A DNA stretch of 64,000 nt from Streptomyces aurantiacus (GTDB lineage Bacteria; Actinomycetota; Actinomycetes; Streptomycetales; Streptomycetaceae), in the NCBI RefSeq assembly GCF_001418335.1, contig NZ_LIPP01000149.1, forward strand, positions 1 through 64,000. The letters are read 5' to 3'. The notes below the pieces were generated by a model, which saw nothing but the letters and a program-made list of their open reading frames with translations, was not told the origin of the DNA and made no database searches. A program made the translations under genes and the position numbers. This document shows, in pieces, positions 30,297-37,578 of the stretch. Every line of letters starts with the position of its first letter. The first letter of the stretch is position 1.

Positions 30297-31124
30297 TCAC
30301 CCCAGCCGGCCGGCCAGGCCCCCCGTGCATCTGACTTCGTCGCCCGCCGTGATCAGCAACCCCTCGATGCCCGGAAGCGATTCCAGCCACGCGAGCCCCT
30401 GCCGGGAGCCCATCGCGAAGGCCGCCGTCGCCCACGCGTCCGCCCAGGTGATCCGCGGGCCGACAACCGTCACCGCGACCAGGTCGGTGACCGCGGAGCG
30501 CCCCGTGCGCGGGTCCACGATGTGCGTGCCGCGCTCGGCGGAACCCGAGGTCGCCACGGCCAGCCGGTCGACACCGGCCGCGGAGACCACGGCGGCGAGA
30601 CCACCCGGCCGCAACGGGTCGGACACCCCGATCCGCCACGGCCGGTGCGGCCCCGGTACGCCGTACATCTGCACGTCGCCGCCGCCGTTCACGCTCACTC
30701 CGCTCGCCCCGGCCTCCACCAGCCGCAGGGCCGCGCGTTCGACGGACCAGCCCTTCACCATGCCGGTCGGGTCGATGACACCCTCGTACGTCGAACTGAA
30801 CCAGCCGTCGCTCAACCGCCCCGCCTCGGCGCACAGTTCGAGCACCTCGGCGACCTCCGGGTCGCACTCGTCCACGGTCAGCAGGCCGCGCGCCAGCCGG
30901 GAGATCTGGCTGTCCTCTCGATACGTGCTGAACGTCTCGTCCACCACGTGGAGTTGGGCGACGGCCTCCGCCAACGCGGCCTGTACGGCCTCCGGTTCGC
31001 CCCCACGTATGTCGAAAGAGAAGACCGTGCCCATCACCTCCTCCGCGTGACGCACCGCCGGAAGCGCATCGGCCGCATTGGCTGCGCCGGCGGCACCGGC
31101 CGCCGCATCGGCCGGTTCAGCCAC
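30297..31124 (-). CDS. apbE: FAD:protein FMN transferase (ApbE)
   Basis: Covalently attaches FMN to Thr/Ser of partner proteins (275 aa). ApbE landmarks are EVMGTVFSFDIRG, DETFSTYREDSQIS, the GWSVERAALRLVEAGASGVS region, NGGGDVQMYG and VDPRTGRSAV. I see no clear signal peptide; an Ala-rich stretch (residues 5-20) opens the protein. Its start overlaps the stop of the FMN-binding-domain gene by 8 bases, and that protein carries two exact flavinylation motifs, so enzyme and substrate are encoded together. Third gene of a reductase-FMN protein-ApbE operon. Confidence 0.92.
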   Translation of the reverse strand: MAEPADAAAGAAGAANAADALPAVRHAEEVMGTVFSFDIRGGEPEAVQAALAEAVAQLHVVDETFSTYREDSQISRLARGLLTVDECDPEVAEVLELCAEAGRLSDGWFSSTYEGVIDPTGMVKGWSVERAALRLVEAGASGVSVNGGGDVQMYGVPGPHRPWRIGVSDPLRPGGLAAVVSAAGVDRLAVATSGSAERGTHIVDPRTGRSAVTDLVAVTVVGPRITWADAWATAAFAMGSRQGLAWLESLPGIEGLLITAGDEVRCTGGLAGRLG

Positions 31125-31962
31125 CGGCCTGGTCCAGGGCCGACTGCAGGGACTCCTTGTAGCCGCCGCTGGTGTAGGTGGCGCCCGAGACGGCGTCGAT
31201 GTCGGCGCTGCCCGCCGCGACCGCGGCCTTGTTCAGCTTGGGCACGGAGTCACTGGTGACCTGGCTGCTGCGACCGCCGCTGGGTGACTGCACCGCCTCC
31301 GCCTTGGTGATCTTGCCGCCGCTCACAGTGATGCGTACCTGCACGGGACCGTAGTCGGTCGTGACGGCCTTGCCGGTGACGGTCTTCGCCTGGGCGGCGC
31401 CCGCCCCCGACCCGCTCGCGTCACCCGAACCGCTGCCGCCGCCAGTGCCACCGGTACCGCCCGTGCCACCAGTGCCGCCCGTGTCGGCCGAACCGCCGCC
31501 CGGCGCCCCCGCCTTGTCGAGGGCCGACTGGAGCGACTTCTTGTAGCCGCCGCTGGTGTAGGTGGCGCCGGAGACCGCGTCGATGTCGGCGGTACCGGTC
31601 GTGACCGCGGCCTTGTTCAGCTTGGGCACCGCGTCGGTGCTGACCGTGGTGGAGCGCCCGCCGGTCGGCGACTGCAGGGCGGCGGCCGACGTGATCTTCC
31701 CGCCGGCCACGGTGATCCGGACCTGGACGTTGCCGTAGTCGGTCTTGACGACGTCACCGGTGAGGGTCTGGGCCTGGGCGGCGTCGGCGGCCTGCGTACC
31801 GCCGGAGCCCTGCGGGGCCACCGACTGCTGTCCCTGTGGCACGCCGTCGGCGGACGAGGCCGCCGGGTCCGACGCCGGCTTCAGCGCCAGCAGCAGGACG
31901 ATCCCGGACACCGTGGCGGCACCGGCCAGCACGATGCGGCGCAGGGGATGATTCTTCTTCAT
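31117..31962 (-). CDS. exported protein with two FMN-binding domains
   Basis: Membrane-anchored extracytoplasmic flavoprotein (281 aa). N-terminal transmembrane/signal segment at residues 8-27. Two homologous FMN_bind domains (about 62-150 and 190-278) are joined by a Gly/Thr/Ser linker with TGG repeats (161-175). Each domain ends in the flavinylation motif DAVSGAT (D128-T134 and D256-T262), matching the Dxx(S/T)GA(T/S) rule, so both Thr residues should carry FMN. The protein would relay electrons from the membrane reductase to an outside acceptor. Domain duplication within one chain is a known theme of multi-flavinylated proteins. Confidence 0.9.
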   Translation of the reverse strand: MKKNHPLRRIVLAGAATVSGIVLLLALKPASDPAASSADGVPQGQQSVAPQGSGGTQAADAAQAQTLTGDVVKTDYGNVQVRITVAGGKITSAAALQSPTGGRSTTVSTDAVPKLNKAAVTTGTADIDAVSGATYTSGGYKKSLQSALDKAGAPGGGSADTGGTGGTGGTGGTGGGSGSGDASGSGAGAAQAKTVTGKAVTTDYGPVQVRITVSGGKITKAEAVQSPSGGRSSQVTSDSVPKLNKAAVAAGSADIDAVSGATYTSGGYKESLQSALDQAGG

Positions 31963-33556: not shown

Positions 33557-34297
33557 TCAGCCGGTGATCGAGGTCGGCCCGTCGTCCGTCCCGATGGCGA
33601 TGTGCGGCTCCCGGGCGGGCTCGGCCCAGTCCAGGATGCGCCGCATCGCGTCCTCGGGCACGGATACACAACCGGCGGTCGGCCCAGTCCCGTTGACGTG
33701 CAGGAAGATGCCCGCGCCCCGCCCCCGTACCGGCCGCTCGTAGTTGAAGCCGACGACGAGCGCGTACGCGTACTGCGTGCCGTACGTGATCAGGTGCTCG
33801 GACTCGGCGGCGCGGCAGTCGGCCGGGCGGGGGTCGGTCCACCGGTTGTAGGAGCGCGAGTCGTTGTCCTGGCACCACCAGGAGGTCCGCGTCACCCGGC
33901 GGTACGACGTGGTCGTCCCCTCGGGCGCCGGCCTGATCCCGAAGGCGTACGGCAGGTCGTACAGGCCGGTGGGTGTGGTGTTCGTGCCCTGCCGGCGGGA
34001 GCCGCCGTCGACGAGCCCCTTGGCACCGAATCGCGCGGCCGCGGAGCCTGCCGCCACCCAGCGTCCGTCCCGGCCGCGACGGTCCCACCAGGTGAGCGTG
34101 CCGGTCGTCGAGGAGGTCCGGGCGGCCCGCGCGGTGATGAGCTGGCTGCCGCCACCCGTGTCGGCCATCCGCTCGGGCAGCGGGGGCGGGGCATCGGGAG
34201 CCGGTCCCGCGGCCGGTCCCGCGGCCAATCCCCCGGCCGGTCCCGCGGCCGGTACGAGAAGGGACACGGACGCGAGGACGGCGGCTCCGAGGCGCAT
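33557..34297 (-). CDS. L,D-transpeptidase-like (YkuD) secreted protein
   Basis: Exported protein (246 aa) with a signal peptide (residues 1-20), an Ala/Gly/Pro low-complexity stretch (AAGPAAGPAPDAPPPLP), and a YkuD-type catalytic domain. HVNGTGPTAGCVSVPEDAM carries the conserved His, Gly and active-site Cys of L,D-transpeptidases. Such enzymes make 3-3 peptidoglycan cross-links. No separate peptidoglycan-binding domain is visible, so substrate targeting is unclear. The ATG is at 34297, 2 bp past the stop of the PNPOx-fold gene, so the two form an operon. Confidence 0.82.
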   Translation of the reverse strand: MRLGAAVLASVSLLVPAAGPAGGLAAGPAAGPAPDAPPPLPERMADTGGGSQLITARAARTSSTTGTLTWWDRRGRDGRWVAAGSAAARFGAKGLVDGGSRRQGTNTTPTGLYDLPYAFGIRPAPEGTTTSYRRVTRTSWWCQDNDSRSYNRWTDPRPADCRAAESEHLITYGTQYAYALVVGFNYERPVRGRGAGIFLHVNGTGPTAGCVSVPEDAMRRILDWAEPAREPHIAIGTDDGPTSITG

Positions 34298-34299
34298 GC

Positions 34300-34887
34300 T
34301 CAGACGGTACTGGGAGGCAGGGGCAGCGGCAGCCCGGGAAGGCCGTCCAGGCTGCTCTCCACGTACTCCTTCTTCTCGAAGTACGCGTTCAGCGAGACGT
34401 CGTCCTCGCGCGCGAAGCGCTTGGCGTGCAGGTCGCGGTCCTCGTCGTACGACATGAAGGGGACCGCGTAACCGCAGGTGTCGCGGACGAGCTCGGCCGT
34501 CACCACGATGATCGCCCGCAGGCCGTGCCGGCCCGGGTCGATGTCCGGGAAATGGGCGAGGAGATCCCCGAAACGCGGGTCGTCGCGGAAGACCGGCTCG
34601 CCCCGGCCGTGTACGCGGACGATGTTCGGCGGGCCCTGGAAGGCGCACCACATCAGGGTGATCCGGCCGTTCTCCCGCAGGTGCGCGATCGTCTCGGCGT
34701 TGCTGCCGGCGAAGTCCAGGTAGGCGACGGTGAGGTCGTCGAGGACCACGAACGAACCGGTCAGCCCCTTGGGCGAGAGGTTGACCGTGCCGTCGCCCGA
34801 CAGGGGCGCGGTAGCGGTGAAGAAGAGGGGCTGCGCCTCGATGAACGTGCGCAGGCGGCCGTCTATGCGTTCGTATGTCTTTCCCAT
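34300..34887 (-). CDS. pyridoxamine 5'-phosphate oxidase-fold protein
   Basis: Flavin/F420-binding split-barrel protein (195 aa): RTFIEAQPLFFTATAPLSGD, GTVNLSPKGLTGSFVVLDDL and GRITLMWCAFQGPPNIVRVH. The family includes oxidoreductases and general stress proteins. The remainder, including SYDEDRDLHAKRFAREDD, resembles the uncharacterised subgroup in Streptomyces. First gene of a two-gene unit with the L,D-transpeptidase. Confidence 0.88.
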   Translation of the reverse strand: MGKTYERIDGRLRTFIEAQPLFFTATAPLSGDGTVNLSPKGLTGSFVVLDDLTVAYLDFAGSNAETIAHLRENGRITLMWCAFQGPPNIVRVHGRGEPVFRDDPRFGDLLAHFPDIDPGRHGLRAIIVVTAELVRDTCGYAVPFMSYDEDRDLHAKRFAREDDVSLNAYFEKKEYVESSLDGLPGLPLPLPPSTV

Positions 34888-34937: not shown

Positions 34938-34989
34938 CCCGGGACCCGGGGTTCGGGGGCCGAGTGGCTTCCGAACCCCGGGTCCCGGG
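34938..34989 (-). terminator. 19-bp perfect stem hairpin
   Basis: The arms CCCGGGACCCGGGGTTCGG (34938-34956) and its exact complement (34971-34989) enclose a 14-nt loop. It lies between the stop of the duplicated secreted-protein gene and the PNPOx-fold gene, so it can terminate transcription of the former. No T-run follows, as is common in Streptomyces. Confidence 0.65.
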
Positions 34990-35063: not shown

Positions 35064-35924
35064 TCACTGGTTCAGCGCGCAGGGTGCGAGTGCTTCGAGG
35101 CCTTCGGGTTTGTCGGCGGCGCGGCCGATGGCGGTTTCGATGCGGTTGAGTGCGGCGACGCGTTTGTCTTCGAGGGGGCCGAGGATGGCGTTCTGGACGA
35201 AGTTGGGTCCGCCTTGGCCGACGGTGTCGACGAGTCGTTTGTTGGCTTCGGCGATCTGGGTGTCCAGTTGGGCGAGGTTGCTGGTGACCTCGGCCTGCGC
35301 GGAGGCGGGGATCTCGGGGAGGCTCGGTTCGACATCGGGGCAGCTGATCGTGCCGACGGCGCCCGCGTCCTCCCCGGCTCCCGCGTCCCCGGCATCGCCC
35401 GCGTCCCCGCCCGCCTCTTCCGTGGCGGCCTCGGTCGGCTCCGCCCCGGCCTCGTCGCCCGCCTCGGACGCACCGTCGGCGTTGAGCGCGCAGGGTGCGA
35501 GTGCTTCGAGGCCTTCGGGTTTGTCGGCGGCGCGGCCGATGGCGGTTTCGATGCGGTTGAGTGCGGCGACGCGTTTGTCTTCGAGGGGGCCGAGGATGGC
35601 GTTCTGGACGAAGTTGGGTCCGCCTTGGCCGACGGTGTCGACGAGTCGTTTGTTGGCTTCGGCGATCTGGGTGTCCAGTTGGGCGAGGTTGCTGGTGACC
35701 TCGGCCTGCGCGGAAGCGGGGATCGCCGGGAGGCTGCCCGCCACCGCCGGGCAGCTGATCGTGCCCGGGGACGCCAGAGTTCCGGCGGCCTTGCTGTTGT
35801 CGCTCTTGGACGTCTCCCCGGCGAGGGCGGAACCTGCGATCACCGCTCCGGACAGCGCCACCGCGGCAGCGCCGCCGATGATCGCCACGCGGCGCTTGTT
35901 GTATTTCGGAAGAGCCCTGGACAT
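35064..35924 (-). CDS. secreted protein with two near-identical repeats
   Basis: Exported protein (286 aa) of unknown function. The signal peptide (residues 1-35, VAIIGGAAAVALSGAVIAGS, then ALA) is followed by repeat 1 (about 55-147), an acidic Ala/Glu/Gly linker (about 148-190) and repeat 2 (about 191-285). Each repeat begins with a Cys (TISCP) and ends with a Cys (APCALN), suggesting one disulfide per module. The helical core contains SNLAQLDTQIAEANKRLVDT and GQGGPNFVQNAILGPLEDKR. The core is identical between repeats, also at DNA level. Start ATG 35924; divergent from argH. Confidence 0.8.
   Translation of the reverse strand: MSRALPKYNKRRVAIIGGAAAVALSGAVIAGSALAGETSKSDNSKAAGTLASPGTISCPAVAGSLPAIPASAQAEVTSNLAQLDTQIAEANKRLVDTVGQGGPNFVQNAILGPLEDKRVAALNRIETAIGRAADKPEGLEALAPCALNADGASEAGDEAGAEPTEAATEEAGGDAGDAGDAGAGEDAGAVGTISCPDVEPSLPEIPASAQAEVTSNLAQLDTQIAEANKRLVDTVGQGGPNFVQNAILGPLEDKRVAALNRIETAIGRAADKPEGLEALAPCALNQ
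35074..35313. repeat. direct repeat A of duplicated module
   Basis: 240 bp that match 35485-35724 (offset 411 bp) at every base but one (35304 versus 35715). It encodes the C-terminal module of the secreted protein. Third-position A/T use is higher here than in neighbouring genes. Confidence 0.9.
35485..35724. repeat. direct repeat B of duplicated module
   Basis: Partner of 35074-35313, encoding the N-terminal module of the same protein. Synonymous identity implies recent duplication or ongoing gene conversion. Confidence 0.9.
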
Positions 35925-36078
35925 GGGGATGCCTCGCTTGGGTCAGGAGTGAGTTGACAGACGCGGCGCCGGCGTTCGCGGTGAAGTACGTGAAAGCGGT
36001 TTCCCGCGTTCAATGGGAGCCGGAATCTCTGGAAGTCGACATCCCTGGAACCGGAATCGCGGCCCCGCATCGCCGGAA

Positions 36079-37578
<1,500 letters not shown>

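Follow-up and report, generated by a model that had tools for sequence, protein, structure and literature searches.

The gene studied here raises the question whether two almost identical halves of one protein stem from a recent duplication or are an old pair of repeats kept alike. It lies in a 64,000-nucleotide stretch of Streptomyces aurantiacus DNA (the window). The preliminary description of the locus offered very recent duplication or gene conversion as explanations. Comparison with homologues leads us to conclude that the near-identical halves very probably form an old pair kept alike by recurrent intragenic gene conversion, as judged from the pattern of differences within and between genes. 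The gene and its parts are as follows.

35064–35924, minus strand: gene of the 286-aa secreted two-module protein (ORF and homologues)
35820–35924, minus strand: signal peptide, residues 1–35, ending in ALA-GE (cleavage site by inspection; similar N-terminus in homologues)
35484–35753, minus strand: module 1 (M1), residues 58–147, a Cys-bounded predicted helical hairpin (sequence; AlphaFold2 pLDDT 95.3)
35485–35724, minus strand: near-identical tract, module 1 copy (1 of 240 bases unlike the other copy)
35343–35483, minus strand: linker, residues 148–194, acidic, rich in Ala/Gly/Glu/Asp (sequence, charge count)
35073–35342, minus strand: module 2 (M2), residues 195–284 (sequence)
35074–35313, minus strand: near-identical tract, module 2 copy (the differing N-edge, CPDV..., lies just outside)
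34938–34989, no strand assigned: terminator-like inverted repeat, 24 nt, 92% complementary, 4-nt loop, 3' of the stop codon

The inverted repeat may mark the transcript end. The signal-like N-terminus, recognised by inspection, suggests that the protein is secreted, in agreement with the preliminary description. The acidic linker that it placed between the modules carries about −13 charges by our count; without its first 35 residues the protein has a pI of 4.15 and four cysteines. Its C-terminus reads ...ALAPCALNQ, and an LPXTG-type sorting signal is absent.

A 285-nt direct repeat (35070–35354 and 35481–35765, 95% identical, spacing 411) holds both 240-bp blocks. On recount these blocks (35074–35313 and 35485–35724) differ at exactly one base, as had been reported, and the mismatch is synonymous (GCT/GCC in the codon listing). 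The further claim that the blocks encode identical modules with a Cys at each end needs refining, since neither block includes the initial Cys of its module, which is located immediately before it. Taken over their whole length of 270 nt, which begins with one Cys and extends slightly beyond the other, the modules differ at 13 nucleotides and 4 of 90 residues. Of the 13 differences, 11 lie within the first 30 nt; the other two are the mismatch in the block and the final base. Identity is unbroken over at most 230 nt, and the runs test gives p 0.001 (175 family-variable sites, 1000 permutations). The third-position GC content of the window modules, 0.82, is the lowest among 94 homologous genes (mean 0.96), and many A-ending codons are common to both modules. 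An FMN_bind protein with two domain copies and a signal-like N-terminus is encoded 3 kb away (31117–31962, minus strand). The two halves of that protein show 48 differences in 240 nt; near-identity of repeats is therefore no general feature of the assembly.

The module family was characterised on 102 modules. Across them 25 of 94 positions are invariant, both cysteines included. The family signature consists of Cys4 and Cys91 at the ends and a GG-x2-F-x2-NAI-x2-PL-x2-KR core (positions 47–64); both window modules carry it and score 166 bits against the module profile. The AlphaFold2 model of the module (pLDDT 95.3, pTM 0.84) has helices at positions 16–42 and 51–76, that is, a predicted helical hairpin, and the invariant Cys pair suggests that a disulfide probably joins its ends. 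The family had been called unrecognised in the preliminary description, and this is borne out: at E 0.01 none of the 102 modules matches NCBIfam, and one matches Pfam, weakly. Foldseek gave no match to the module model at E ≤ 0.001, only generic helical ones, and the best Z of VIA-align 2, 6.7, is usual for helical hairpins. The PHROGs search yielded nothing convincing (best E 0.026), and sequence searches of PDB gave best E values of 0.15 and 0.45. The whole window protein scores 22.3 bits against CbiD (PF01888; curated cut-off 25), over two stretches. We rejected this relationship, since two weak stretches are summed in the score and none of the 102 single modules matches CbiD at E 0.01. Thus a conserved extracellular domain is defined that has no entry in the curated libraries searched and that is also attached to DUF1996 proteins.

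The protein search in the genus gave a match in 232 of 295 genomes, the window's own included. Many of these matches are long frames of low identity resembling DUF1996 paralogues, which was checked for the two in the window genome. From the 232 matching genomes, the best listed places of the search gave the 97 same-genus loci studied here. Intact two-module genes occupy 78 of them, three-module genes 3, and single-module genes 9. The others are one gene with at least three modules and an unread run (L012), three with an altered second module (L052, L059, L060), one with a broken frame (L099) and two cut by contig ends (L100, L102). Loci L002–L005 and L103 were left out, and L101, at a contig end, gave no gene. 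L103 is a strongly rearranged second relative in its genome, with several partial modules in Asn/Gly-rich sequence. The linker length across homologues varies from 27 to 81 residues.

Among the best 80 loci of named genomes, two or three modules were found in Amycolatopsis, Phytohabitans and Actinoplanes-type genera, and in Nonomuraea within DUF1996 proteins. Three modules were counted in at least 9 of 77 named loci, S. scabiei 87.22 among them, by a module parser that undercounts: it overlooked a second module in several Amycolatopsis genes as well as a module of L159, and it recognised none in the three Lentzea loci, where the query matched over residues 1–284 or more. The module profile matched 10 of 396 genomes in a phylum-wide sample (nine from the genus, counting the window's own) and 31 of 101 genomes (5 of 17 genera) in a family sample.

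The prediction that module number would vary is thus correct between species, which have one, two or three. Single-module relatives, proposed as proof of a fresh duplication, do exist, but they are misleading in this role: for five of the nine (L091, L093, L094, L097, L098) the gene closest by flanking DNA has two modules (flank identity 94.5% for L093 and L018, 93.3% for L097 and L048). A two-module gene is second closest for L088, L092 and L096 and fourth closest for L095. At least several single-module genes therefore appear to have collapsed from two, and the best reading of the flanks is that at least five of the nine lost a module when the repeats crossed over. Where a gene has three, modules 2 and 3 are 0–3 nt apart in seven of ten comparable cases (L007, L010, L108, L113, L114, L118, L139) and further apart in L175 (5 nt), L154 (18) and L181 (36); L166, with modules of unequal length, and L055 are not among the ten. 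In the complete S. scabiei 87.22 record they differ at 3 of 270 positions.

The evidence on the origin of the near-identity comes from M1–M2 comparisons within and between genes. The range of differences and the closest copies were counted in 68 two-module genes; shuffles and site classes used 72 genes, of which the 68 with three or more differences entered the runs test. M1 and M2 of one gene differ at 1–56 of 270 nt (median 31) in the 68 genes, and at 0 to 69 of 270 in 51 named two-module loci, with no difference in L106 (S. resistomycificus) and L130 (S. monashensis) and the largest one, 69, in other genera. In 72 genes the two modules of a gene differ on average by 27.1 nt; random reassignment of the M2s between species raises this mean to 51.2, and the lowest value in 1000 such shuffles was 48.4. 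In 22 of 68 genes, M1 is nearer to the M2 of its own gene than to the M1 of any other species; with the comparison limited to the first 174 nt this holds for 32 genes, and with the last 96 nt for 16.

The closest relative of the window gene by flanks among the loci read is L006 (90.0% over 2679 aligned bases). Between the two, 21 sites have changed in both copies together and one is copy-specific. These counts, with the shuffled means, support the gene conversion that the preliminary description had mentioned. Comparison of 54 nearest-neighbour pairs yielded 534 concerted and 643 positional sites, against means of 158.6 concerted (highest 178) and 881 positional in 20 shuffles. Concerted sites dominate in the first 174 nt (391 vs 232 positional) and positional ones in the last 96 nt (411 vs 143 concerted), which indicates that the C-terminal third is often spared and homogenisation is partial. 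Either the tracts seldom reach this third or selection keeps both ends distinct. Of the 68 genes with at least three differences, 37 reach p ≤ 0.01 in the runs test, the window gene among them. Position-specific M1/M2 residues lie in the last third (for example N/D at position 65, T/I at 69, A/S at 83, P/A at 86; 72 genes), where many genes keep the M2 type. In the window gene the last third of both modules is of M1 type, and the N-edge of M2 is still CPDV; this suggests that copying probably went from M1 to M2 and overwrote most of module 2. As L006 is also M1-type in both copies, part of this copying may be older than the window species.

We therefore weighed the ways in which such a pattern could arise. 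Under the explanation that we prefer, the two-module layout is old, its copies are homogenised again and again by homologous gene conversion between the two repeats, which lie 411 bp apart within the gene, and crossing-over between the same repeats now and then removes or adds a module. Taken as a whole, together with the hairpin beads, this explanation is likely. A tandem duplication fresh in the window strain, from a single-module ancestor, would account directly for a single difference in 240 bases, and single-module genes exist at 9 of the 97 loci. It was rejected as very improbable, since L006, at the same locus beside argH, already has two modules with concerted differences between the species, and the window M2 retains its M2-type edge. 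More generally, the very recent duplication of the preliminary description is contradicted by two modules in 78 of 97 homologues and two to three in other genera, and by position-specific M1 and M2 residues throughout the genus. That description had named drifted orthologues as evidence against its reading. Two-module orthologues that have drifted at synonymous sites are present in many species and absent in others, which fits repeated, partial homogenisation. Mis-assembly of short reads, by collapse of the modules or by one being copied onto the other, has to be considered because the window genome is a draft of 561 contigs and related drafts break inside the gene (contig ends in L100–L102, the unread run in L012). 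Still, one-contig genomes (six differences in L011 and L054, nine in L006) and the complete S. scabiei genome show the same pattern, and the linker and edges differ in the window gene. As a general cause it was rejected, and for the window gene we regard it as highly unlikely.

Strong purifying selection on the protein or DNA without recombination is hardly credible: the 25 invariant positions among 94 agree with it, but synonymous changes are shared by the two copies of a gene and different between species (17 synonymous codon differences between the M1s of the window gene and L006, five between M1 and M2 of the window gene). Birth and death of modules, lost by deletion and regained by duplication of the whole unit with no conversion, is a more serious, though still unlikely, alternative. 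Module number ranges from one to three and differs between close relatives, and modules 2 and 3 of three-module genes are mostly within 0–3 nt of each other. However, in two-module genes the identity is often confined to a tract (the 37 of 68 genes above), and the M2-type residues kept at the edges or in the C-terminal third speak against whole-unit reduplication, which would erase them. Conversion is not seen directly here, and loss with regain could yield some of the identity, especially in three-module genes. Under recurrent conversion, the pair is a case of this process repeatedly at work on one short two-copy array throughout a genus and measurable site by site. It also corrects a tempting error: near-identical modules alone are no evidence of a young duplication.

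The upstream neighbourhood of the gene contains the following features.

36145–37578, plus strand: argH (argininosuccinate lyase), divergent neighbour (Pfam Lyase_1 and ASL_C2)
35987–36012, minus strand: promoter-like element TGAAC-N17-CGTA with a conserved spacer (AACCGCTT) (leader alignments)
35958–35978, minus strand: conserved leader dyad CGAACGC-N7-GCGT (leader alignment; weak for RNA structure)

In the 97 loci the divergent neighbour is argH-like in 50, argG-like in 41 and neither in six (motif search); these six may be paralogues. The TGCAT-rich repeats of the interval between the gene and argH (35925–36144) resemble an ArgR operator. The genus consensus of the leader (35958–36013, minus strand) is TTGAAC-N4-GAAACCGCTT-N-CCCGTA followed by CGAACGC-N7-GCGTT. 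At least 90% of 90 aligned leaders retain TTGAAC, and likewise CGTA. CGTA 17 bases past TGAAC is invariant in 69 aligned leaders, taken from 89 that were selected for containing TGAAC, so that the invariance of TGAAC itself is there by choice. We take TGAAC-N17-CGTA to be a putative ECF-type promoter. The exact motif occurs once in the window genome, at the gene itself. The 17-base leader pattern with up to three mismatches has 159 matches in the genome versus 76 for the reversed control, one of them exact; the 26-base pattern has 2 versus 3 in the control. No Rfam family scored above its gathering score in the leader. Pairing in the dyad holds in 89.6% of cells versus 88.7% in shuffles (6 of 500 as high), and six cells have a double change (3 of 500 as high); the number of dyad pairs with a double change is not unusual (172 of 500 as high). 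The case for an RNA structure is thus weak. A YkuD L,D-transpeptidase gene lies nearby (33557–34651, minus strand), with a PNPOx-like gene between it and the window gene.

As to function, the protein would be a secreted string of two helical-hairpin beads of about 90 aa on a flexible acidic linker. The module would bind a repeated ligand of the actinomycete cell surface, and module number would tune avidity. This proposal, suggested by the signal peptide, the invariant polar residues, the partnership with DUF1996 and the variable copy number, is tentative; the window protein itself has neither a wall anchor nor a DUF1996 domain, which speaks against surface binding by it. About as likely is a structural or spacer protein whose modules lack a ligand and act as a stalk or as sheath filler: the variable module number, the linkers of 27–81 residues and the simple predicted hairpin suit such a role. 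The many invariant polar residues (E21, N25, Q32, E35, R39, N54, K63, R64, R70, R77) seem more than a spacer requires, although a buried polar network could account for them. More speculative is the broader reading of the module as a new surface-binding hairpin domain of filamentous actinomycetes, occurring as one to three secreted beads, with attachment to DUF1996, a number set by recombination, and an ECF-like promoter of its own beside the argG/argH control region.

Known systems were compared with the window protein. It was not described in the open-licence papers found on secreted repeats, concerted evolution, DUF1996 and the S. scabies secretome. The open-licence papers searched mention neither SCO1571 nor SCO1569, putative argH neighbours taken as candidate tags for its counterpart. 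In the passages of PMC4098958 with SCAB_73/74 tags, no tag could be assigned to the S. scabiei gene.

The nearest likeness is to DUF1996 proteins with the same module. The window genome has three DUF1996 genes, all on other contigs, and two of them carry the module before DUF1996. One of these two has a C-terminal LADTG-hydrophobic-basic tail, which we take to resemble those of sortase substrates. In Nonomuraea two modules precede the DUF1996 region, and in the Amycolatopsis DUF1996-like proteins L158, L168 and L169 two modules lie inside it (inspection and alignment). The AlphaFold2 model of the DUF1996 region had a pLDDT of 35 and was set aside. Unlike these proteins, the window protein has doubled modules, no anchor and no DUF1996 domain (PF09362 is absent among the 11 families listed for it). 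In PMC4738358 the DUF1996 proteins of fungi are described as vacuolar, with effects on wall, osmotic, oxidative and metal stress; their deletion makes the fungus sensitive to wall perturbation and to metals. By analogy, this phenotype is a distant hint for module function.

The architecture also invites comparison with surface proteins of the genus. The long chaplins ChpA–C of Streptomyces are likewise small and secreted, and they have two tandem modules that contain Cys. The window modules are, in contrast, predicted to be helical and are about twice as long, and the protein has no terminal sorting signal; the ChAPLIN domain is absent among the 11 families listed for it up to E 10, most matches above E 0.1 having been filtered.

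As regards the mode of evolution, the available passages of PMC5120217 define concerted evolution by repeats that resemble the other repeats of the same protein more closely than the corresponding repeats of orthologues, and call homogenisation of tandem-repeat proteins relatively rare. In our set, repeats are more alike within the gene than between orthologues on average in the 72 genes, and strictly so in 22 of 68. Compared with the proteins described in those passages, the present family differs in that an array of just two copies has been homogenised repeatedly throughout a genus, while the C-terminal thirds often remain distinct.
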